In this document: positions 1 to 55,508 of the stretch, in pieces
How the letters are laid out: each line of letters opens with the position of its first letter
Numbering within the stretch: the stretch's first letter is position 1
NCBI GenBank assembly: GCA_963575745.1
Contig: CAUYUJ010015265.1
Span: 61,001 to 125,000, forward strand
DNA length: 64,000 bases
Direction: 5' to 3'
Source: Prorocentrum cordatum
Taxonomy: Eukaryota > Sar > Dinophyceae > Prorocentrales > Prorocentraceae
Translations under genes and position numbers: made by a program
Notes under the pieces: model-generated
Seen by the model: the letters and a program-made list of their open reading frames with translations, nothing else
Told to the model about the DNA's origin: nothing
Database searches by the model: none

Positions 1-772
1 ACATGTGAAGGCAGAGGAGGAGGAGGAGAGTGAGATGAATGAGAGGATGAGCAAACGTATTGCCGCAAATTTTGAGAATGAAACGGAGTGGAGGTGTGAG
101 AATATTGAGCGTCTTGGGATGGAGATCTTGGGAGATAGTAAGACTGTTGTAAACTGGATGTGTGGTGAGTGGCAGATTCGCAACAAGCAGTATGTACGAC
201 TGGTGGGAACACTACAAAATACGGTATCGATGCTGTCTGGATGGGGACTGACCTCACCTGCATCGGGACAGAATCTGTATAAGCATTTCTTTCGTGAGGG
301 TAATGAGCGTGCGGATAAATTGTCGTGGGAGGCCAGAGGTGGCCAAACTATTACTCGCTGGTTTGCATATGATAAGTTCCTCAGTACTCGTAAGACTGCT
401 CTCCGTGGTGCATTCGATGGGGGTGTCAGTAATGAAGGATGTGGAGGTGGGTGGTGGCTTCAGATTGGCGTTGTAGGTAGGGGTTCCAGCGTGCAGGTTG
501 ATTTTCCCATCTCCTCCTCCTCCTCCTCCTCTTCCTCCTGCACCAGCTCGCACAGCTTCCATTGGCACGATGTGGCCGAGGAGGCGATGAGCTTGCCTCC
601 TGGTAGCACGGTAACCTGCTGTGAACTAGCTGCCTGCGCTGCCCTGACGAGAGCTGCTGCTAAGGTGGCGTGCGCTCTGCTACGACCTACCTAAGATGGT
701 GGGGGCTCAGTTGCACTGCTCCGCCGATTCGGATTCGGATTCTAGTGGCGGACCGCAAACCGCAAAAAAACA
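1..772 (+). mobile_element. LINE-A copy 1, 3' end
   Basis: This is the 3' end of a non-LTR retrotransposon whose upstream part lies outside the window. It holds the end of the coding region (to 694), about 75 bases of 3' untranslated sequence, and an A-rich end (GCAAACCGCAAAAAAAC) that joins directly onto the right half of an HP hairpin beginning near 773. The left half of that hairpin is therefore on the other side of the element, outside the window. The same end-to-hairpin junction recurs at 25124 and 32405, which shows that this is the true element end. Confidence 0.8.
2..694 (+). CDS. LINE-A polyprotein C-terminus, permuted RNase H-like domain
   Basis: The frame is open at the left edge. 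Two half-domains are visible. The first has GDS (Asp codon 134-136) followed after 60 residues by FREGNERADKL (Asp codon 314-316), which match the third and fourth acidic residues of RNase H. The second has FDGGVSNEGCGGGWWLQIG (Asp codon 416-418) followed by CELAACAAL (Glu codon 623-625), which match the first and second acidic residues. The normal N-terminal half thus comes last, as in the copies at 22.7 and 30.4 kb. A run of serines (TCC repeats, about 511-540) expands a loop between the last strand and the last helix. Expected role: removal of the RNA strand during reverse transcription. The domain call rests on motifs and spacing only. Confidence 0.7.
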   Translation, partial: HVKAEEEEESEMNERMSKRIAANFENETEWRCENIERLGMEILGDSKTVVNWMCGEWQIRNKQYVRLVGTLQNTVSMLSGWGLTSPASGQNLYKHFFREGNERADKLSWEARGGQTITRWFAYDKFLSTRKTALRGAFDGGVSNEGCGGGWWLQIGVVGRGSSVQVDFPISSSSSSSSSCTSSHSFHWHDVAEEAMSLPPGSTVTCCELAACAALTRAAAKVACALLRPT

Positions 773-22689: not shown

Positions 22690-25124
22690 TCCCGTTCTGT
22701 GTGGTGATCCTGGTCGAACAATTTGTGTCTCGGGCTGGCCTCATGGGACCCCTGGGCATCTACGGCTTCCAGGAGGGACGTAGGACGGTGGAAATTGTGG
22801 GGGCCCTCAAGGCTCTGGCTCAACATGGGGACATCTGGGGAAAGGATCAGACGGTCCATATATTGTTAACGCCGATATCAGACAAGCGTTCGACCATTGC
22901 AGCCTTCAAAATGCCAAGCGAGCTATGTGCCATGCCAATATTCCTGCCTATCTCCAGTATGCTTTGCTTTCACCGCTGGTTTGCACTACGGGGTCGTTAG
23001 TTGTCGAGGGTATGGCCATTCACGACATCAACTGGGACGTCTGTATACGGACGGGCGGCCCTGGGGGGCCTCTTCTCTTTAACCTTATCATATGTGCCAT
23101 GTGGGGACCTATATTTCGGGATTGGGACAGTAGAGGAGTGGGGTATGTGCTGGAGGGCGTCTGTGGTGAGTATGAGCGACGGACAATCGTGAACCACTTT
23201 GTGTGGGCGGACAACTGCTACCTTGTCTCTGCCTCCTCAATTGTGTTGGCTCAGATGATGCCCGATCTAACACTACCACTACATGACTGGGGGATGAGAT
23301 GGAAGGAGAGCAGCCTGTTGTACATGACATGTGGGGAAAATGCGAGAGTGGACGGTGACGGACATATACTTGCCAGCGAGGATTTGTGTATACCTGCGTG
23401 CTCGAGATATCAGGACTTTAGACTTCGACGTGTGTGCAGAATGAAAGTATTGGGTCATGAGATTTTCTCCACCTACCTAGTGCCCGCTCATCCTGATGTG
23501 GAATATCGCATCAAGGAGGCTCGTGCTTGTTTCATTGGACAGTCGGATTTCTTTCGTAACAGAGCGGTAGCTGTTCGTGATAAGTTTTGTCGTTATCAAG
23601 ACAAGGTGCAGAGTATGGCGTTGTATTGTCTAGAGACATGTACTGCTGATACTTCCTCGCTACACATGCTCAATGCCTTCGAGGGATGGTGTTTGTGCCG
23701 TATGTTTCGACGGCCGAGGAGGGAGGAGGAGACTATGGCGGACTGGGACCGACGACGGTACCACGAGGCCAGAGAGCAATTTCGATCTTATGGATTTGCG
23801 AGTTTGGTGCAGCGATTTCTCCGTATGGTGTGGAACTCCGCTAAGGATGCTGCAGATTTCATTTCTATATTGTGTACTGCTTCTCATGAGGAAATATCTT
23901 CGACGCAACGTACGTGGAGAGATCACCACATGACTACGGTTGCATACGGCCCACTGTGGGACAGGCTCAGGACGGATGCGTCTGAGTGCCTGCGGGGTAT
24001 GTTTCACTTCCAGGAGGCTTCGCAGCTAAAAAGGAGACATGTTAGCTCAGGTCGAGCTATTGGCCAGAGATGCTGGCTATTTTCTTTCTGCGAATTCTAC
24101 GGACTCAAATGGTGGGAGTCCTTTGTGCCGACAGATGCTGCGTATGTTCAGTTCTGCGAACACATGTGTACACGGACGATGCTGAGTTATTTTCAGAAAA
24201 GGAAAGGGTACGGTACAACAGGTGGGGCCCTGCAGGAGGTACATATTATCACACAAAACGACCTACACACCTATGGGGCCCAAGAGGGCACTGCGGCTTT
24301 CAACGACAAGCTGGCCAAACGTATTGCGTTACAACATATGAAGGAGGTTGAGTACGACCTCGACTCATTTGGGATCCCTGTGTACATTTCTGGGGACAGT
24401 CTTCTGGTGGTGTCTTGGCTGCAGGGTGTCTGGAGGGTGCTTAATCGTACTTATCAGGATAGGATCAACAGAATGATAAACCAACTTGACAACATGTGTC
24501 AGAGGTTTGGAATTAGGCCTGCCTGTCATGGGAGGGACATTGTCGACCACACATATAGGGAATGGAACACGCGTGCAGATGTACTCACTCATGCGGCCCG
24601 TGTCGGGCCATCAGTGATTCGAGATAGGATAGGGCTTTACGCCCCTCAGTTACAACAGGTGTTTCGCGTTTGTGCCATCAGAGCTGGATTCGATGGTGGT
24701 GTCTCTTGCGACGGCGTGGGGGTCGGGTGCTGGATAGATGTTGGACGGGTTTCGAGGCTCTCAAGGCAGCCACTCAGCCATGAGATTATTTGGACGGAGG
24801 TGTATAGTGCGGCACTCTCGAATGATCCAACTTCAACAGTGACTGATGCCGAGATCTCGGCCGTTGAGCATACGATGATAATCTTGCCGCGGGTTGTAAA
24901 AGCGTATTTCGGACAGGATATGATGTGATTTTGATTGTGCTCACTCACGCCATGCCTTTGTTTGTCGTGTGTGTGTGCTTGACCTCTCATCCTCCTAATA
25001 AGAGTTGGCTTTCGCCTCTGATCGTTTGGATCGGTGAGGCTTCCGCCTACTCCCGATGCGCCCGCTCCTTGCTTCCGACCAGGCTGGAAAGCCTGCACAG
25101 TCGACCGCAAAGTCCGCAAAAACT
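22690..25124 (+). mobile_element. LINE-A copy 2 (5'-truncated)
   Basis: A non-LTR retrotransposon copy of about 2.4 kb with no terminal repeats. It starts inside the reverse-transcriptase region, continues through the permuted RNase H domain, has about 195 bases of 3' untranslated sequence, and ends GACCGCAAAGTCCGCAAAAACT against the HP right arm. Its 5' truncation is typical of target-primed reverse transcription. Confidence 0.85.
22701..24928 (+). CDS. LINE-A reverse transcriptase and permuted RNase H (one frameshift)
   Basis: The first 160 bases read in one frame (GFQEGRRTVEIV) and switch near 22860 to the long frame ending at 24928. In the long frame the reverse-transcriptase landmarks are NADIRQAFDHC (first catalytic Asp, about 22874), GGPGGPLLFNL (about 23063) and VWADNCYLV (about 23200), where the usual second Asp of the xDD box is Asn. 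A connecting region with ALYCLETCT follows. The C-terminal domain has GDS (Asp codon 24395), REWNTRADVLTH (Asp 24578), FDGGVSCDGVGVGCW (Asp 24692) and AEISAVE (Glu 24851). The Asp-Asp spacing of 61 residues is close to the 64 between D70 and D134 of E. coli RNase HI. The first ATG in the long frame, at 22925, lies after the first catalytic Asp, so it is not the true start. Confidence 0.8.
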
Positions 25125-25152: not shown

Positions 25153-26395
25153 TGGCAAGAAAAATCTCGGCGGACTGTTTTTTCGACATTTGCTCGGTTG
25201 AAGAATATGTTTTCGAAATTCAACAATTCGTTTGAGAGCTCTACGAGGGCCCCGGCGGTAACCTGGTTGACGGTTTACCGCCGGTTCCCAATATGTTCTC
25301 GAAATTCAACAATTCGTTTGAGTTTTAATCTTTTTCCCCGTGATATTCAATATTATTCCCGCTCGCCGTCTCAATCTCAGCTCGATCGGGTACCTACTAC
25401 TGCCAGAATAGATGTGGGGGGGATCGGCCGTTTCGAGTCGTCTTGACAGGTGCTGTCGGTTTTCTGTCTCCACTCGAGCTGTAGGGAAGCTACAGAGCTG
25501 GTACGTACGCGTAATCGATTCAGAATCATCGGGCGCGTTCGTCTGAAGCATCTAGAGGTCTGAACTCGGTCTGCTACTCGTGCTAGATCCGCGAAGCTAT
25601 TCGTATTATTCGAGTTCTCTCGGCAGGTGCTGTCGGTTTTTGTATTCAACTCGAGCTGTAGGGAAGCTACAGAGCTGGTACCCACACGTAATCGATTCAG
25701 AATCATCGGGCTTTCGTCTGAAGCATTCAGAAATCTGAACTCGGTCTGCTACTCGAGCCAGGTCCGCAAAACTTTTCGTATTTGACAGTTTTTTTTCTCG
25801 AAATGGTGGTGAATTCCTTCACTTAACTCGAGCTGAAGATGAGCTGGAGAGCTCTTCGGCACAGAAATCGGAAGAAAATCATCGGGCGCGCTATTCTGAA
25901 GTATCTAGATTGGCTTGGGCCTGTTATGAGCTGACGCCGAACAACTAGTCATGTTCCGCCTTGTTTCTGGTGATGCAATTGGTTTTCTTGACTGAAATCG
26001 AGGTGCAGATGAGCTTCGGAGCTCTTAGGCATAGCAATGGGAAGAGAATCGTCGTACGCGCTATTTGAAAGTATCTAGGCACCCGAGCTCAGTCTGCTAT
26101 TAGCGCTAGGGCTGAACACCTATTCGTTCTCTGCTACTGTCTTGGAAACGGATTGTCTTTCTTGGTTTTACTCGTGCTGCAGATGAGCTACAAAGCTGTT
26201 CAGCACAGCAATGGGGAGGGAATCGACAGCGGTGCTAGTCAAATGTATCTAGACGCCTAAGATCAGTCTGCTATCAGCGCTCGGGCTGAAAAACTATTCC
26301 TTCCCTGCTAATTATTTGAAGATAGTATATGGCAAGAAAGCTCTACGAGTCTCCCCGCGGTAACCAAGGTTGACGGTTTACCGCCGGCGCCCAGT
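25153..26395 (+). repeat. Satellite, mixed family A and B monomers; HP at 25236-25290 and 26339-26395
   Basis: A short head and an HP (variant ending GGTTCCCA) are followed by a second head and monomers near 25437, 25614, 25790, 25965 and 26140. From 25790 onward the monomers belong to a diverged subfamily B, recognised by CAGATGAGCT and AGTATCTAGA, of similar length. The second HP has CTCCCCGCGG, so its left arm is imperfect. Confidence 0.8.
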
Positions 26396-27055: not shown

Positions 27056-27445
27056 TTGGTCGACCCGGCCAGAAAGGACCAAGTGTTAACTTTTGAGTGG
27101 TTTTGCGAATATTTGAAAGATATTTGACCATTTGTTTTGAGGAAGCAGATTTTTCGCACCTTCAAACGAATATGAGGGCCTCTCCGTCTTAATATGAGCT
27201 CTGTAGGCGCACGTTTACTACCAAAACACTTGGGGGAACCAACTTTGTGTCGACATGAAAAAAATGAATCTTCAATTTTTCGAGAAATGCCTCCAGAAGC
27301 TCTAACTTTCGACTCTGAGCACTCTCACGCGTCAAAGGAGCTCTACGAGGTTCCCGGCGGTGACCAGGTTGACCCAGTTGACCCAGCTGAAGCATCGGTC
27401 CGAAAACCCAAAAAACCAGGTTGACGGTTCACCGCCGGCGCCAGT
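27056..27445 (+). repeat. M2 module, copy f, with HP holding a 42-bp retroelement end
   Basis: M2 (27056-27337) leads to the HP left half (27338-27373). After GTGACCAGGTTGAC comes an insert of about 42 bp ending TCGGTCCGAAAACCCAAAAA, and then ACCAGGTTGACGGTTCACCG resumes the target. ACCAGGTTGAC is present on both sides and is an 11-bp target-site duplication. The insert is the extreme 3' end of an element with the same CAAAAA terminus. Confidence 0.75.
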
Positions 27446-27447
27446 CA

Positions 27448-27921
27448 AAATCGGCCCATCCATCTACTTGCGATCCTCCCCAACCTCCGTCCTCTTTTCA
27501 CGATTCAGTTTCTTCCGCTCTACCCGCCCCAATTGTGCCCTTCTTGCCCGAAGGCGACAAGGAGATGGAGGTGGATGAGATGCATAACAATCAATCAGAG
27601 TGCGATGAGGACGCTGATTCGGATGCGGCCTTCCACGCATGGGATAAAATGGCCACCCAGCGAGAGAGGGCAAATTTCTACTTGAAGCAGGCTGCTCTGC
27701 ACCGTCTGTGTGAGGCTTTGCACCGTGATGGGGAGGAGGACGCGGACATCCAGAGATTCTGGGAGCAGCGCCGGTTGGACAAGATAAGGATGCACCGTAT
27801 TGCAGGGTGGTGCTTCGGACATTGGCGGTGCTTGACATTCTACTCAAGTAGTGCTCAACGGTTGACGGAACAATGTTTGCAGAGCCACATTAGGAACCTC
27901 CGTGTAACCTTTAGGCCTTAA
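27448..27921 (+). pseudogene. Type-two element protein, C-terminal 157 codons
   Basis: It corresponds to the last 157 codons of the 583-codon frame at 33.4-35.2 kb, with no indels and a stop at the same place. Differences are scattered substitutions (for example RFWEQRRLDKI for RTCGLCRLDKM). The 5' part was never copied, so there is no start; the apparent upstream frame reads through HP. No conserved domain is recognised. Confidence 0.7.
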
Positions 27922-28504: not shown

Positions 28505-30155
28505 CCAAGGTTGATGGTTTGCCGGCTGCCAGTTGGCCCATCCAGCCGGGGCGGAAAATTTGATGACCTGGGATTGGTTTTCGGAAGATTCTGAGATATT
28601 TGGAAACCATTATTCTTGTAACATGGAGTGGGTTGTGCCGCGTTTTCCTGATCAATTATCAGGTCTATAGCTGCGATTTGACTCGTAGAGCTCTTCGCTA
28701 AGAGCGTTCGCGGCGAAGCTAGACGACTAATTCCGGCGCGCTGGGGGGCTAGTTCGCAAAAATAATCTCGACGAGGTGCTGCATAATTTTGCTCGGTTTA
28801 AATTCTATTTCTCGAAATGAGCAGTTCGTTAGAGCTCTAATATTTTTCTCCTCATATTCGATCTTATTCCCGCTCGCCATCTCAATCTCAGCTCGATCGG
28901 GTACCTATTATTATAAAGCGCTCAGGCTGGATCGGCTGTTTCGTGTCATCTTGTCAGGTGCTGTCGATTTTCTGTACTGAACTCGAGCTGTAGGATAGCT
29001 ACAAAGCTGGTAGGCACACCTAATCGATCTAGAATCGTTTGGCGCGTAAATCTGAAGCATCTAGATGTCTGAACTCAGTCTGCTACTAGAGCTAGGTCCG
29101 CGAAGCTATTCCTACTCTACTAGCGTTTGGAGATGATGATGATTCACTTGGCTTAACTCGAGCTGCAGATAAGCTGCAGAGCTGTTCGGCACAGCAATCG
29201 GAAAGACATCATCAGGCGCGCTGGTTCAAAGTATCTAGACGTCTGAACTCGGTCTGCTATCTTGGCTGGGTCAGAAACACGATTCGTACTCTGCAAATTT
29301 TTAAGAGATGATCACGGTTTTCTTGACTTACCTCGAGTTGCATCTGAGCTACAGTGCTGTTTGGCACACTAATCGGAAGGAAATCATCAGGCGCGCTAGC
29401 TTCAAATACCTAGACGCCTCAACTCGGTCTGCTATCAGAGCTGGGTCCGAACAACGATTCGTATTCTGTTAAAATTTGGGATGGTGGTGGATTTCTTGGC
29501 TAAAATGGAGCTGCAGACGAGCTAGAGAACTTTTCGGCGCAGCAATGAGAAGGAAGTCGTAAGACCCGGTAGTCGAAAGTATCTAGACGCCTGAACTTGG
29601 TCTGCTATTTGAGCTGGGTTGGAACAAATATTCGTATTCGATTTTTTTAGAGATGGTGATGGTTTTCTTGATTCAACTCAAGCCGGAGATGAGCTGCGTA
29701 GCTGTTTGTCACATAATTCGAAAGGGAACCATAAGTAGTCTAAAGTATCTAGACACCTGAATCTGATCTGCTATCAGAGCTGGGTCAGAAAAACTATTCG
29801 TATTCTGCTAAATTTGAGACAGATGATCGTAACCTTCTTGACGTAGCTCCAGCTGCAGAAGAGCTACATAGCTGTTCGGCACGGAATCGGAAGGAATTTA
29901 TCATACGCGCTAGTTTCAAGTATCCAGATGCCCGAACTCGTCACGCTTTTAGAGTTCGAACCAGAAAACTATTCGTACTCTTATTAATTCTTCCAGAGAT
30001 GCTTTCTCCTCACTCCTTCTCCTTCTCAACGTTCTCCTCTTATGAGACCGCGCCCTCGCGCGCGCAATGCGAGATTGCCGCGCCCGCTTTGCACGAGGAA
30101 GCTCTACGAGTTCCCAGCGGTAACCAAGATTGACGGTTTACCGCCGGCTCCCAGT
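28505..30155 (+). repeat. Satellite family B block, HP at 30099-30155
   Basis: The HP right arm (28505-28533) is followed by M2-like remnants (GGTTTTCGGAAGATTCTGAG), a head (from about 28680, GACTCGTAGAGCTCTTCGC) and about seven monomers of subfamily B near 28947, 29120, 29300, 29470, 29645, 29815 and 29985. These monomers carry GTATCTAGACGCC. The tail is a different block, CGCGCGCGCAATGCGAGATT, shared with 32.8 kb. The HP left arm is imperfect (CCCAGCGG). Confidence 0.8.
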
Positions 30156-30323
30156 TACTGTTAAAAAGCGTGGAGGAACCATTGGCCGTCGTAATGTATT
30201 TTTCGAAATCATAAAGCATATAGTATATTTTTTGGAGCTGATATTTACTCGAGCTGTCTCGTCGGAATCGAACGTACTTTCGTGATTTTAGAGCTCTACG
30301 AGGGTCCCGGCGGTAACCTGGTT
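30156..30323 (+). repeat. M2-like remnant and HP left half
   Basis: TACTGTTAAAAAGCGTGGAG and AACCATTGGCCGTCG are diverged M2 sequence. The HP left half runs from GAGCTCTACG at 30291 to TAACCTGGTT at about 30323, where LINE-A copy 3 begins. Confidence 0.65.
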
Positions 30324-30358
30324 CGCAGGTCGCCTGTTCCATTGCCCGCTCACAGCCG

Positions 30359-31603
30359 GTGCCCTCTGGAGAGGGAGCTGCCCACGCTCTCAGAGGCGAG
30401 CCACTTGCCGTCTCAAAGGGGAGGAGGGCCTTTCGAGACTCCCGACGTGCGCTTATGATGTGCAATGTTGGCTGGGTCACGGCTCGCGACACAATAACAG
30501 AGGTTCTACGACAACACGGCAACAGGGCCTTATCTAGTTCGGGCAAGCGGCTTCGTGGAGGCCCTGTGTCTGTGGGCGGTCGGTCTTGGCAGTTCCCCTA
30601 CATTCAGTTCTTTGGGGAAAAGTGGTGGGAGTCTGTACGGGGCGATTGGGTTCAGTTCTTGGAGGTATGGAAGCAACTCCTTACACAATACAACAAAACT
30701 AAGGTCTATGATTACTTTGTGGTGTCTTGGAAGGGTTCTCCTAATGGACCTCGAGGCCCCCCTGAGGCTCGAGAGAAGGCCGATACTGAGGCGGTCGACA
30801 TCGCGACCAACCCTCTGCACCCCAAGTACGACCCCAAAGAGTCCGCCAAGCTTGCAATACGTTATGCTATGATCCAGGAACGTGCGACTGTGTGGGATAT
30901 ATCCTCAGAGGGTTTTGCTGCTGAGTTCAAGGGTGACTCATTACTTATCTGCTCCTGGCTACAGGGGAAATGGAGATGTGAGAATCGTGGCTACTGCAAG
31001 AGGACAGCTGCCATGATTGATTGTACCTTTGAGCTCGCTGCGTGTTTCAATCTGAGGCCTGCTGCCTTGGGACGTGAGATATGGAGACATGAATTCAGGG
31101 AGGACAATACACGAGCGGATGAATTGACGCATGAGGCCAGATGTGGCCGCACATTCTACAGAACTCATTGTTATCTATATCCATTCGAAACTTATCTCTT
31201 ACCGTTCGCTATCAGGGGAGGCTTTGATGGCGGGGTTGACCAGCAAGGATCAGGATGTGGTTTCTGGCTTCAGATCGGCTTAATCAATACTCAGTGCAAT
31301 CCCAGTGAGATAGGCATCGCTTCCGCGAGAACCGTGGGCCCCTTCCCTGCTGGGCATGAGTTTGCTGTTTCTAGTGCCGTGCCCCTCGTTTGGAGGGATG
31401 TGGCCGAGGCCGCGTGGCTCCTTGAAGGAGCTACAGTCACAGAATGTGAACTGTCGGCAGCCGAAGCGCTGCTCAGCGCTGCCCGTGTGCTTCTGCGGGA
31501 CCGGTCCTCGCCCAGCTGCACTCAGCTGGGAACGCGAGTCCAAACAAACAAACAAACCTGGTTCGGAGGGAGTTCGGCAGGATGTCAAAACAGTGGACAC
31601 TAA
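30359..31603 (+). CDS. LINE-A polyprotein, C-terminal 414 codons, permuted RNase H
   Basis: The frame is open from the truncation point; the GTG at 30359 is only the first possible start and is not a natural one. GRSWQFPYIQFFGEKWWES matches the corresponding stretch of copy 2 (about 24058-24120). The C-terminal domain has GDSLLICSWLQGKW (Asp codon 30935), REDNTRADELTH (Asp 31118, 61 residues later), GGFDGGVDQQGSGCGFW (Asp 31226) and CELSAAEALL (Glu 31448). All four acidic positions are kept although the copies are far diverged at the protein level, which argues for past selection on this permuted order. The tail from about residue 385 (TQLGTRVQTNKQ) has no match in the other copies. Confidence 0.75.
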   Translation: MPSGEGAAHALRGEPLAVSKGRRAFRDSRRALMMCNVGWVTARDTITEVLRQHGNRALSSSGKRLRGGPVSVGGRSWQFPYIQFFGEKWWESVRGDWVQFLEVWKQLLTQYNKTKVYDYFVVSWKGSPNGPRGPPEAREKADTEAVDIATNPLHPKYDPKESAKLAIRYAMIQERATVWDISSEGFAAEFKGDSLLICSWLQGKWRCENRGYCKRTAAMIDCTFELAACFNLRPAALGREIWRHEFREDNTRADELTHEARCGRTFYRTHCYLYPFETYLLPFAIRGGFDGGVDQQGSGCGFWLQIGLINTQCNPSEIGIASARTVGPFPAGHEFAVSSAVPLVWRDVAEAAWLLEGATVTECELSAAEALLSAARVLLRDRSSPSCTQLGTRVQTNKQTWFGGSSAGCQNSGH

Positions 31604-33340: not shown

Positions 33341-33485
33341 CCGCATCGCGCGGACAGGAGATTTTGCCCCGCCAGATTTCGCTTCCCTCGTACATATCTG
33401 TGTACCCAACGGGTGATCTGCCGGCGTTGGATTGATTTCTCTGTCTGATCAGTTGTTCTTGCGTGCCCCTTCCTTGTGCGGCATC

Positions 33486-35183
33486 ATGACAGCGCAATTT
33501 TGTTCGATTAGTTCTGTTTCGACCAGTTGGAAAAGAAAAACGAGGAGAATCAAACTGGCGATTTGTAGACAAGCTGTATTTGATGTTATGCAGTTTAATG
33601 CTCGTGATCCATATTTTGTGGCTGATCCGAATACCTTCCCCGCGTTTGGCTGGTTTGATAACCTCGATGATTGTGCGCGAAACCCATGCCCGTTTCAGGG
33701 GAACTCGGAGGAGCAGGTCAATATATTGTTGAGTTCCTTATCGGTGCCAGAGCCGAAGACCAGTGAGAAAGACAAGAAATCGGACTTGCATCTGATTGGT
33801 GAAGTTGCTTATGTTGATTCGCATGACCTTTGGTCGCCGGCTGGGTCTGATTATTCGCAGAGACAGGAGAAGGAGGTTTCGTCACATCATGATGTTCCCG
33901 ATTCAAATGTTCCCGCTGTTGACCCAGGTGTTCTAAAAGAGGAGTTGCATGATGAGGAGTTGCAGGATGCGGGGTTGCAGAATGCGGAGTTGCTGAATGA
34001 GCAGTTGCATTATTCTCATCATACATATTATATGGCTTCACGCTCTGAAGTGTGCCACACTTCAGCTTCTGACGCAGACCCGGCTCGCCGTGGAAAGGAT
34101 TGGCAGGGGGATCTTAAGGATTTCAAGGACGAGGAGGAGGAGAATGTTCATGTTGAATATGTGGAGAGTTCTACGACAGTTGCTGCTGAAGAAGCGTCGC
34201 TTGCTTCTCAATCAAATGATGCTGTACTGCACGCATTTCCTTTGGATTATTCTTTGCACTCAGCTCCTTTGGATTATTTTCTGCACTCAGTTCCTGTGGA
34301 TTATTCTCGAGTGCAAAGGGAAGGTGGAGGCCCCGAGGCGCTGCCGTTGGCATCCTCGAAAACCCACGGAGAGTGCGAAGTTGACCAGCGTAAAGATAAC
34401 TGTGCCTCTTCTTCCCGGCTCTGTTCAGATGAGTTGCAGAGTAATCGATCTAAGTGTCAGGCTGCCAGGGACTGGGCCCGTGCCAATGACGATGCAGTTG
34501 CTCTTTGGCGGGAATTCGAACGGCTCCCGAAAGATGAGTTTCGGATCGAGGCGCTCAGGGCATACAAACTTCGAATGGGAATTGAGAGTCCCGAGGAGGC
34601 GCCGACTCCTGAGGAGGATGCTGGCCGTGGGAAAGGCCAGAGGCACCGCAGAAACAGGAGGCGGGCAAGGGCGAAGGCTCAGGCAGTTCTAATTGGCTCT
34701 TCTATGCCAAAGTCGGCCCATCAATCTACTTGCGATCCTCCCCAACCTCCGTCCTCTTTTCACGATTCAGTTTCTTCCGCTCTACCCGCCCCAATTGTGC
34801 CCTTGTTGCCCGAAGGCGACAAGGAGACGGAGGTGGATGAGTTGCATAACTATCAATCAGAGTGCGATGAGGACGCTGATTCGGATGCAGCCTCCCACGC
34901 ATGGGATAGAATGGCCACCCAGCGAGTGAGGGCAAATTTTTACTTGAAGCAGGCTGCTCTGCAACGTTTCTGTGAGGCTTTGCGCCGTGATGGGGAGGAG
35001 GACGCGGACATCCAGAGAACCTGTGGGCTGTGTCGGTTGGACAAGATGAGGATGCACCGTATTGCAGGGTGGTGCTTCGGACATTGGCGGTGCTTGACAT
35101 TCTACTCAAGTGTTGCTCAACGGTTGATGGAACAACGCTTGCAGAGCCACATTAGGAACCTCTGTGTAACCTTTTGGCCTTAA
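33486..35183 (+). CDS. Type-two element protein of unknown function
   Basis: The frame is open from 33432; the first ATG is 33486, giving 565 codons and a leader-to-ATG distance of about 150 bases. No domain is recognised. Visible parts: a start with aromatic residues (MTAQFCSISSVSTSW); an acidic middle; a run of near-repeats EELHDEELQDAGLQNAELL; three 9-residue repeats around LDYSLHSAP (27-bp DNA repeats at 34239-34319); a basic stretch KGQRHRRNRRRARAKAQ (about 34641-34690); and a C-terminal 155-residue region with CGLCRLDKM and HRIAGWCFGHWRC, which is also preserved in the copy at 27.4 kb. The basic stretch suggests nucleic-acid binding, as for ORF1 proteins of LINEs (inference). Confidence 0.65.
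   Translation: MTAQFCSISSVSTSWKRKTRRIKLAICRQAVFDVMQFNARDPYFVADPNTFPAFGWFDNLDDCARNPCPFQGNSEEQVNILLSSLSVPEPKTSEKDKKSDLHLIGEVAYVDSHDLWSPAGSDYSQRQEKEVSSHHDVPDSNVPAVDPGVLKEELHDEELQDAGLQNAELLNEQLHYSHHTYYMASRSEVCHTSASDADPARRGKDWQGDLKDFKDEEEENVHVEYVESSTTVAAEEASLASQSNDAVLHAFPLDYSLHSAPLDYFLHSVPVDYSRVQREGGGPEALPLASSKTHGECEVDQRKDNCASSSRLCSDELQSNRSKCQAARDWARANDDAVALWREFERLPKDEFRIEALRAYKLRMGIESPEEAPTPEEDAGRGKGQRHRRNRRRARAKAQAVLIGSSMPKSAHQSTCDPPQPPSSFHDSVSSALPAPIVPLLPEGDKETEVDELHNYQSECDEDADSDAASHAWDRMATQRVRANFYLKQAALQRFCEALRRDGEEDADIQRTCGLCRLDKMRMHRIAGWCFGHWRCLTFYSSVAQRLMEQRLQSHIRNLCVTFWP
34239..34319 (+). repeat. 27-bp in-frame repeat, three units
   Basis: Three adjoining 27-bp units start CCTTTGGATTATTCTTTGCA, CCTTTGGATTATTTTCTGCA and CCTGTGGATTATTCTCGAGT. 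They encode nine-residue repeats with the core P-L/V-D-Y. Confidence 0.85.
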
Positions 35184-37446: not shown

Positions 37447-38399
37447 ACTGCTCCCGAGTGCCAATTTGTTTCACCTCGCTTCTAACGTGCTGGATGTTCC
37501 AAGACACTGCATGTAATCGTACTTGGATGGTCTTGTTCGTTTGTTTCCGCCTCCAGAGAGCTGCTCCATCGGATTCTTCTTTTCGACTTATTCTTCGTCA
37601 GAGTCCTCTGCGCTGTTGAGATCCTCTTTTCGAGATCTACCTGGCGTGCGTCTCTCCTTCCTGGCCGTGGCCTCCTCAGCTGAAGCACTGCCCTGTCCTG
37701 CCATCTCTGCTTCGATGATGCAACCTCAAGATATAATCTCGAAAGTACAGTATCGAACAATATCAGGAAGCAATATAAAGAGCACAGCATCGAACAAGGT
37801 CAAAGCAGACGAATGCCGCGCAATCTGAAGATATACTGCAGCTTGGATTCACGCCAATCACGTTACACAAAGCTTTCTATATAGCATCACAAGACAACCG
37901 GGAAATTCACAACCAAAAGAAAATGTGCTGCAAGTGGTGCTACACAAGAAAGGCAGCGTCTCAACACCGCGCGTCATGCGAATAGCAAAACACAACAACT
38001 CTCGGCAAAATGCCGCTCGAGGTGACCCCGGACGACGGCGCTCAGCCTCCAGATCCCGATGGTGGAGGAGACCCTGTTTTTTTGCGCTTTTGCGGGCAGC
38101 GTCACCACGTCCGACGTGGCTACCCGAGACGCACGAGCACTTGCCTGGCCTCTTGGAGGCTTTTTAAAGCAGAGAGTTCAGCGTCGGATATCGTACAGTC
38201 GGGAGGCAGAACGAGGGCAGCCTCGCACGCGCCTCCCCAAACGAGAGAGTCACGCTCTGCGGAAAAGCTTGCACACAGGGGTGTGTTAGGATAGTTAAAG
38301 AGGGGGTGCGCAGAGGAGGGAGTCAGAGCAGCCTAGATAATATCCGATGCCAACACCATGCTTGTCAACGCCTCCGTCGTGCTGTCCTCAGAGGGCGAC
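37447..38399. other. No recognised gene
   Basis: Frames of up to about 100 codons overlap on both strands without family resemblance. If the LINE-C fragment extends toward its 3' end, its remains should lie here, but I cannot identify them. Confidence 0.5.
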
Positions 38400-39220
38400 A
38401 TTGAAGCAATGTTTCTCTAACGGGCGACGATTGCGCGCAAATTCCACCCCGGATGTCGCCGCAGATCCCACGGCTGTGACTGCGGCTTCCTGCCGCCGAC
38501 AATCTTCAACAGAGAACTTCCCTCGAAGGCGTGCACTCTGTGAATCGACTCCTTATCCCCCGTACAACTTTCAGCATTATAGAGGAGAGTGGCTTGTATC
38601 ACACTGCAGAAACGCTTGAAACGCTTGATCAGGGGAACGCTGTGCTCTCTAAAATACCTTCATACCTGAGTTGACCATGAAAGGCCTTTCTCGCCGCCGG
38701 CAATCGGTTCTCAACATCTGTATGTCGGTTCGAATGGCACTCGACAGAAACCGAACTACCCATAACAGTCAACCCATATTGACTTTCCTGAAAGGTACAT
38801 CGTCTCCATCAAGTCGTAAATACAGCAGGGGATGCAGCGCCGAAGCCGATCACCTCGAGAGATTCCTTCTTCCAACTGAAACCCCATGCTTGAAAGCGTT
38901 GAGTCAAGCCTACGATTTGCCTCTGGAGCAGATCTGGGTCCGAGCCGAGAATATCAACGTTGTCAGCATAGATCATGTGATTTATCAGTGGCTGTTTTGT
39001 CGTGCGGTTTGGGTCGTCCGCGCCGGAGCGTGAGCGCGCGATGCGCGCGCGTGGTTCGGGTTGAAATATGATGCGAAGATCCTGCCGCAGCTGCTTTTGC
39101 AACCTTATGTCGCGATCTTAGACCCCTGAAGTTTCGCGTTGAATGGTTGCAGTTCTGATCCCGTTCTAGTATTTCAACCAGAGGCTGTCTGATCCAAACG
39201 GTTTTCAATCCTTCAATCAT
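38400..39220 (-). pseudogene. LINE-C reverse-transcriptase fragment
   Basis: On the minus strand, LINHMIYADNVDIL (codons about 39000-38955) followed by FQAWGFSWKKESLEVIGFG is the catalytic box and the following motif of a LINE-type reverse transcriptase. As in LINE-A, the second Asp of the xDD box is Asn. Further along the same strand (38602-38417), in a separate frame, LLYNAESCTGDKESIHRVHAFEG corresponds to the connecting region found in LINE-A (ALYCLETCTADTSSLHMLNAFEG). Frames are broken between the two parts. The upstream motifs with the first catalytic Asp are not visible. Confidence 0.65.
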
Positions 39221-44969: not shown

Positions 44970-45787
44970 CGGGCGGCGCTCAGCCCGCTTTGCCAGTGGT
45001 GCGAGGGGGCGACGGGCACGGCGCACCACCGCCTCCTCACTTGTTCCGCGATCGTGACGTGGGCGACCGGGCTGGGGTTCCAGAACGTGGCGGTCGCTGG
45101 GAGAAGAGCGCCAGAGAACGACCTCGGGATGGCACGTGGCCTCATCAACTAGGGGATCGACCAGGCGCCGCCGCCCAGCGTGGACCAGAACTGCCACAGG
45201 GCTGGGCTGGCGCACCACGTGTGCTTCAGTGGCGTGATATGCATCGACGGCTCGGCGATGTGTCCCGAGTTGCCCAGGCTCACTCGCGTGAGGTGGTCGG
45301 CCGTGATGGTGGACGGTGTCGGCTCGGTCCTCGGCGGCATGTGCTGTTGCGCGCCTGGGTGGGTCCAGGTGAGTGGCTGCGCCGAGCTGTGCGCCCTGAA
45401 CCGAGTGCCGCTGGAGGTGAGTGTCGAGCCATTGGCCATCTACACGGACTGCAAAGGGGCCAGGGGCGACTTCGTGAGAGGGCCTTCCATTGCTGCGGGC
45501 ACGAGTGCAAGTGCGCTGACCTGTGGAAGCTAGTGTTCCGCCAGGCCGATGAGCTCAGGGCCGAGTGCGTTGACCTGCGATGGGTGAAGGCTCAGGCCAG
45601 CTGGGCCGGTGCGAGTCGCCGCGGGACCTCCCTGCAGGCCTTCGCAGGGAACCGCGATGCGAACGCGAGGGCGCGGCTGTGCGCGAGGCTCCACCCAGGC
45701 CAGCCGCTGCTCGCGGAGTTCGAGAGCCGCTGGAGTGAAGCCGCATCGCAGGCCGTTGCCTGGTGCAGCCACCATTGGGGGTCCTGA
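44970..45787 (+). pseudogene. LINE-B CCHC knuckle and RNase H in normal order
   Basis: LCQWCEGATGTAHHRLLTC gives C-x2-C-x8-H-x4-C. RNase H follows in the standard order: CIDGS (Asp codon 45246), CAELCAL (Glu 45384), YTDCKG (Asp 45447). After a frame change come VDLRWVKAQASW and GNRDANARA, where the fourth acidic position is Asn. The spacings of 46 and 21 residues fit the usual fold. This copy is a useful contrast to the reversed order in LINE-A. Confidence 0.7.
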
Positions 45788-54092: not shown

Positions 54093-54101
54093 CTTCGATG
54101 T

Positions 54102-55508
54102 GTGTGCACATGGAAGTTTGTGAAGAACAAACAGGGCGAGATGGAACGTGCCATCAGATTTCGCCTGGTGCTTCAAGGCTTCATGGACCTTGAAGCCTTC
54201 GACGTGGAAACCTTCTCAGGTACAGCGCGGTGGTCAAGCCAGAGACCGCTCGCGAGCGCGACAGCGTGCAAGCCGCAAGGGGTCATTGCTTCCCTCGTCA
54301 TCAACATGGCCTTCCTGGAAGGGTTGACCTGCCAGGTAGTTGCTGAGGCAACTGGTGAGAAAGAACGTGTGGTGTGCTTAACTCTGCCGCCTGGATCGGC
54401 TACGGTGCTTCGAACTCTCCCAGGATTCGAGCGCTACGACGAGCCGAAGCACTGCTTGCAGTGCCTCGAGCCAGGTGCTGGCACCAAGGGCGCACCTCGA
54501 GCTTTCTCATTGAAGGCCAGAAGGACCACGCGAGGTTTCGGTTTCAGACCCACGTCTTACGACGAGGAGTTTGAGACGAGCAGCAACCTGCTCGCGGCCA
54601 AACATGTTGATGACATCAATATGGCCGGTACAGAGGACACCATTGACAAGTGCGTCAAATGCGTAGAAGACACTTTTGGTAAGTGTAAACTCAACAAGCA
54701 CACATGCGCCAATTGTGCTGTGAGATATACCGAGGATGAGGGCGGCAGTGTTACGTTGGACCAAGACGAATGCATCAAACAGCTCCGTCCTCTACAACAT
54801 CCTGAACTTTCGGGCGCCGGCGCTGACGCCCAAGCATCCAAGATGGTTGCAGACGCGTTCGTCAGCCTCAGAGGCGCAGTGGCGCATGCATTCATCACCC
54901 AGGTGTGGTTGATGGTATATGCTGTCTCTCTACAACGTGCCCAAGAACCGACCAACATACAAGTGCGACGACCGAACGCGACTACTAGGAAACTGCAGGC
55001 CTGCCCTAAGAAGATCGTCTACCGAGCGATGACTCCCACGGGCGAAGTTGACCTGCACAGCGGCTCAGGTTATCGACACCTGAGTGGAGATGCCGATGTC
55101 GAAGTCAAAGGCTATGGTATTCGCGGGGCAAGCCTGCTACGGCGCGGAAGCACACCATCCAGCAAACCTGTCGTTCACATGATCGATGCGTGCTGCAAGT
55201 CTCACCGCTTGCAGGTCCGCTCGAGCTAGTCAGCAGGGGCACTAGGAGCAGCCCACAACATGGAGGACTGCTATCCCACGATCGTGACTCTGCGCGAGCT
55301 CCACGCAGGGCCGTTAACTCCCACTCAGTTGAAAGACATACTTGAGTTGTGTGGCCTGAGCATCAAGGTCACTTTGACCATAGATGTTGAGTCTGTTTTG
55401 AAGTCCTTGTCAAGCAAAGACTTGAAACCGACTGAATGTACCATTTTAGGACACATCAGCTGGGTACGACAGATGATGGAGCGAGGAAGCGTGCACATTA
55501 TTCGATAG
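54102..55508 (+). pseudogene. Copia reverse transcriptase and RNase H
   Basis: WKFVKNKQGEMERAIRFRLV and LQGFMDLEAFDVETFSGTAR are hallmark copia RT sequence. AKHVDDINMAG (Asp codons 54609 and 54612) is the catalytic box, with His in place of the usual Tyr. LRGAVAHAFITQVWLMVYAV follows. The RNase H part has DLHSGSGYRHLSGD, where I expect Asp rather than Gly. The frame is interrupted by TAG at 55227 (after RLQVRSS) and at 55506 (before CDTRDMTADGHTKGSIDREM), both in the same frame, so these are point nonsense changes. The coding trace ends near 55665. Confidence 0.8.

Follow-up and report, generated by a model that had tools for sequence, protein, structure and literature searches.

Retroviral reverse transcriptases (RTs), integrases, Argonautes and CRISPR nucleases all contain ribonuclease H (RNase H)-like folds, whose structural elements are usually regarded as having a fixed order. 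During replication of long interspersed nuclear elements (LINEs), the RT copies its RNA at the target site, and an RNase H in the same protein can remove this RNA before the second strand is made. The core sheet of the superfamily has the strand order 32145 according to a 2014 survey, whose main text contains no word beginning with 'permut' and discusses no permuted member (PMC3985635). The archaea-like RNase H (aRNH) described in L1 LINEs of plants and oomycetes lies at the C-terminus of open reading frame 2 (ORF2), carries the active-site set D-E-D-R-D with Arg and not His, and contains a REgNxRAD motif; a CCHC motif is reported upstream of it (PMC5348765). Two units within one RT polyprotein, and hence a possible two-unit intermediate, are described for dual RNase H/tether elements, namely retroviruses, Tat, Archon, Chronos and Odin (PMC9040795, PMC5348765). 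Here we analyzed a 64,000-nucleotide stretch of a Prorocentrum cordatum contig (CAUYUJ010015265.1, positions 61,001 to 125,000; hereafter the window), which holds four copies of an element named LINE-A in a first-pass annotation. LINE-A shares with aRNH the C-terminal place in ORF2, the D-E-D-R-D set with Arg and the REgNxRAD motif; its two halves run in exchanged linear order compared with aRNH and RNase HI. Whereas dual RNase H elements have two units, one of them degenerate, LINE-A has one complete set of elements, and its C-terminal domain is very probably a type 1 (archaea-like) RNase H that has undergone a natural circular permutation.

Copy 1 (2-694, plus strand) contains the domain and is cut by the window start. 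Copy 2 (22784-24928, plus strand) is a stop-to-stop frame with the C-terminal part of ORF2, comprising the RT palm, the thumb region and the permuted RNase H, its 5' part lying outside the frame; copy 3 (30317-31603, plus strand) carries the permuted domain. Identity to copy 2 is 32% for copy 1 and 36% for copy 3, and about 30-36% among the window copies overall. In agreement with the first-pass annotation, these three diverged copies have the order GDS, RADxL, [FY]DGGV..GxGxGxW and ExxA at the codons it had given, 12 out of 12 acidic codons encoding Asp or Glu (Asp 134, 314 and 416 and Glu 623 in copy 1; Asp 30935, 31118 and 31226 and Glu 31448 in copy 3; those of copy 2 are given below). The compound motif was found in 0 of 20,000 residue shuffles for each of the three copies. 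Copy 4 (38129-38997, minus strand) is decayed: a remnant of the RT and thumb is followed by the second RNase H half with a stop after helix A, and the first half, from beta4 to helix E, is wholly absent. RT motifs A to C of copy 2 are legible by eye, and Pfam RVT_1 matches residues 25-173 (E 1.3e-4, 22.2 bits against a gathering score of 29.6). As the copy 2 frame opens inside the RT domain, no window copy was taken as an intact element. RT motif C reads ADN where ADD is usual, both in copy 2 (FVWADN, 23198-23215) and in copy 4 (MIYADN, minus strand, 38976-38959); the change may have been fixed in this LINE lineage, as opposed to being a product of decay.

The canonical order beta1-beta2-beta3-helix A-beta4-beta5-helix E is not followed by the LINE-A domain. 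In copy 2 (all parts on the plus strand), the half that comes first, half B, spans 24368-24616 (model residues 65-147) and is predicted to consist of beta4, helices, beta5 and helix E. It contains the catalytic Asp of beta4 in GDS (24395-24397), which HMMER places opposite D76 of 3aly, the Arg of REgNxRAD (24557-24559), which occupies the archaea-like signature position and aligns with PREKNARAD of LC11, and the catalytic Asp of helix E in RAD (24578-24580). A linker from helix E to beta1 (24617-24661, model residues 148-162), which has no counterpart in canonical RNase H, leads into half A (24662-24922), predicted to comprise beta1, beta2, beta3 and helix A and closing the chain, with the catalytic Asp of beta1 in FDGGV (24692-24694) and the catalytic Glu of helix A (24851-24853). 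The start at 24380 proposed by the first-pass annotation was slightly late, since the first modelled strand covers 24374-24394. Because the order of elements is exchanged relative to type 1 RNase H, we class the domain as a permuted variant and not as an ordinary member.

AlphaFold2 modelled the copy 2 domain with high confidence as beta4, helices, beta5, helix E, linker, and then beta1-beta2-beta3-helix A, so that the RNase H elements are predicted in the permuted order that had been anticipated; the single chain forms one globular domain with a predicted template modelling score (pTM) of 0.75. The regions of solved RNases H to which the two halves correspond are largely complementary: half B mainly retrieves C-terminal halves of RNase H1, in structure and in profile comparisons, and VIA matches half A, when it is folded on its own, to N-terminal halves of RNases H. 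Among the Foldseek and VIA rows listed for the whole model there is no full-length RNase H match, and the top rows are PelC in Foldseek and CinA in VIA. The first BFVD row is a 306-residue ribonuclease H of Pithovirus LCPAC404 (A0A481ZDV3; 196 columns, template modelling score 0.21), possibly itself a tandem or rearranged RNase H.

Archaeal and bacterial RNase HI (LC11, S. tokodaii) and aRNH are the best sequence and profile matches of half B, and LINE-A differs from them in that half A alone has no profile-level similarity. In the PDB, only the first half of the native profile reaches RNase H1 (3u3g, E 6.7e-4, residues 68-134), and 7 of the 12 matches are RNases H or relatives, two of the seven being so assigned from outside the profile search. 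With the halves exchanged, the best E value is 3.2e-4 and the alignment begins as early as residue 43, its Glu being shifted by three residues; the native and exchanged alignments differ in their rows, and the better E value is thus not a controlled gain. When compared with a profile built from 49 E. coli-like RNases H, the doubled native profile runs across the new junction, places its Glu in register with E48 and scores 40.4, compared to 35.8 for the native profile. Against 70 LC11-like RNases H, the match of the first half (beta4 to helix E) has a probability of 96.7%; the doubled profile spans the junction in this comparison too, with its Glu displaced by three residues. Shuffling the columns of half A reached the swapped-profile score in 4/200, 11/300 and 5/250 trials. 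None of the 13 proteins scanned had a Pfam RNase H or RVT_3 match above the gathering score; the best score was that of P0008, one of the relatives described below, with 21.0 bits in swapped order against a gathering score of 21.6, and 19.3 bits in native order.

Relatives were collected by three protein searches, in which 1 of 1361, 10 of 4388 and 17 of 7994 candidates matched, yielding a total of 20 distinct proteins. The sources that carry a name are Prorocentrum cordatum, a dinoflagellate (P0004), an MMETSP transcript (P0006) and the EukProt set Pyramimonas sp. AAC; the remaining relatives come from JGI and ENA contigs, and P0002 has no listed source. Since identity is 99% between P0002 and copy 1 and 91% between P0003 and copy 2, the independent lineages are fewer than the rows. 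Among 26 pattern matches in viral contigs, none was confirmed as a relative. Eight proteins of the Pyramimonas set (P0011-P0016, P0018 and P0020) match LINE-A at up to 93% identity; Pyramimonas is a green alga, and these matches may represent either dinoflagellate contamination of the EukProt set or transfer.

The permuted order is present in all nine of the 23 sequences (3 from the window and 20 found) that span the four acidic positions; six of these nine are found proteins (P0001-P0005 and P0008), and the other 14 sequences are fragments. Spacings are 60 or 61 residues from GDS to RAD, 34-38 from RAD to DGG and 43-74 from DGG to the Glu. In 14 sequences the chain end after the helix A Glu can be placed, taking record ends, not verified stop codons, for database proteins: 21-24 residues beyond the Glu in 11 sequences, 50 at the stop of copy 3, and 13 and 16 in two EukProt fragments. 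Conservation was scored in an alignment of 14 members, 9 of the 23 sequences being excluded as near-duplicates or short fragments. Copy 2 is acidic in 20 columns, and conservation is at least 90% in five of them, namely the four catalytic acids (GDS Asp 9/10, RAD Asp 13/13, DGG Asp 13/13, helix A Glu 12/12) and the Glu of REgNxRAD (12/12). The His and the Arg of HxxRE are both present in 12/12, and the spacing from the Arg to the last Asp matches that of LC11. The acidic residues expected by the first-pass annotation are thus kept across homologues about 30% identical, the only loss among the four catalytic acids being a change of the GDS Asp to Tyr in P0004. By its sequence, the conserved set is the type 1 RNase H D-E-D-R-D, with the Arg of the archaea-like variant.

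The predicted cut point of the permutation is the loop between helix A and beta4, the canonical connection between these elements being gone. The chain would enter the fold at beta4, pass via beta5 and helix E to beta1, which it would reach through a new linker roughly 15-30 residues long, and end after helix A. In such a fold, the beta1 Asp, helix A Glu, beta4 Asp and helix E Asp would meet as in RNase HI, the conserved Arg would sit in the general position of E. coli His124, and catalysis would use the usual two-metal-ion site. The RT thumb region would lead into beta4 and not beta1 and, with the chain ending at helix A, the RNase H fold would be joined to the RT through a different site. 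The permuted domain is probably active as an enzyme, and it would strip RNA from the RNA:DNA hybrid of the adjoining RT, allowing second-strand synthesis.

Several points weigh against this interpretation. By profile, half A alone is not significant, shuffles doing as well in 43/200 and 59/250 trials, and profiles therefore contribute less to its identification than conservation, structure prediction and complementarity do. Structure-match scores are low for the permuted domain; with half A as the Foldseek query, an RNase H first appears at rank 50 of the best 50 rows. The arrangement of the halves in three dimensions is predicted and not solved, and the assembled active site, its activity and its role in retrotransposition are putative.

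The main alternative is that the first domain is an incomplete canonical RNase H, in which a helix upstream of GDS would be the real helix A, beta1 to beta3 would be lost or unrecognised, and the terminal DGG half would be the remnant of a second RNase H. In copy 2 this helix, [ED]xxAKR[IL]A (24293-24337, plus strand; model residues 40-54), stands at the sequence place of canonical helix A, and it carries a helix A-like [ED]xxAxxxA pattern whose acid is present in 9 of the 10 rows that cover it and absent in copy 3. Its AlphaFold2 prediction is of low confidence (block pLDDT about 50-64). Including the upstream helix in the role of helix A did not lengthen the alignment to canonical RNase H, and the score equalled the shuffled mean (37.8 vs 37.8 and 66.2 vs 66.2; shuffles at or above the observed score in 22/300 and 24/250), whereas half A does raise the score. 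The terminal half, moreover, keeps its Asp in 13/13 and its Glu in 12/12, which is unexpected for a remnant, and we consider this explanation highly improbable. The first-pass annotation had seen no DGS-like strand before GDS, and a scan for [DN]G[GSA] in sequences with GDS located, several of which have little upstream sequence, agreed except for a match at the artificial stop-to-stop start of the copy 2 frame. No second complete RNase H unit was found in the sequences analysed: no DG[GSA] half precedes GDS, and there is no room for a beta4 to helix E segment after helix A. Instead, the upstream helix may be what is left of a duplicated unit.

Half A of one ORF2 protein could also complete half B of another by domain swapping, with no permuted monomer formed. 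From sequence, a swap and an intramolecular permutation look the same, and half A by itself is predicted to fold; however, the model of the single chain is one globular domain, and 34-38 residues separate RAD from DGG where both are covered, which leaves the swap as the least probable of the alternatives considered. That the domain is no nuclease but a structural tether, comparable to the degenerate connection domains found in retroviruses, is very unlikely as well. Tether domains derived from RNase H are known in long terminal repeat (LTR) elements (PMC9040795), but the degenerate RNase H of dual-RNase H LTR elements is reported to lack catalytic residues (PMC5348765), whereas in LINE-A, with an overall identity of about 30%, the four carboxylates and the Arg are all retained. 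Combined, the predicted fold, the complementary matches of the halves, the conserved acids and the lack of an upstream DGS/AE half support the natural circular permutation of a LINE RNase H, as the first-pass annotation had suggested.

We tentatively propose, as one possible origin of the permuted domain, that an ORF2 once carried archaea-like RNase H units in tandem and lost beta1-beta3 and helix A of the first, leaving the AKRIA helix as a relic, together with beta4 to helix E of the last. One active enzyme would thereby have been made from two half-units and kept by selection through a whole dinoflagellate LINE lineage, with the RNase H groove re-aimed relative to the RT.

The first-pass annotation knew of no description of such a domain. 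This stands for an RT-associated permuted member with an active site conserved through a lineage, none of which was found in the literature searched; it does not for the fold itself, as a 2025 preprint on CIRPIN reports a circularly permuted RNase H-like pair from AFDB (PMC12667903), so that the bare permutation of an RNase H-like fold is not new. The proteins of that pair, which share with LINE-A a permutation within the fold, are unnamed in the text, and the main text of the preprint does not contain 'reverse transcriptase', 'retrotransposon' or 'active site' (PMC12667903). By titles and abstract openings, no permuted RNase H in a retroelement was seen among the matches listed in the open-licence literature; the permutations treated in the relevant parts of PMC3578095, PMC2628886, PMC5408684, PMC4686048 and PMC7824862 concern other things. 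If the permutation is real, a retroelement can rewire the RNase H fold while preserving its active site, and keep the permuted form. LINE-A would then offer a test case for the origin of circular permutations, two-unit RNase H polyproteins being already known in retroelements, and would show how profile searches can miss permuted domains, its own staying under the Pfam cut-off. This suggests that LINE C-termini merit searching with exchanged halves.

Other features were observed in the window. LINE-A copies 1 and 2 flank an array (769-22343) of units of about 0.9-1.2 kb that are roughly 70-80% alike and have apparent internal subrepeats of roughly 180 bases; further pieces lie at 25294-25782 and 28787-29465. 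The frames 27391-27921 and 33417-35183 have in common a block of roughly 150 residues by eye (STCDPPQPPSSFHDSV...), a duplicated coding-like segment. LINE-B, to which the first-pass annotation had ascribed the usual RNase H order, shows that order by motif (DGS..AEL..YTD in the frame 45153-45533), although Pfam does not recognise an RNase H in this frame. A Copia-type RT frame is located at 54093-55229, where the RVT_2 match (E 1.6e-5) is under the gathering score.
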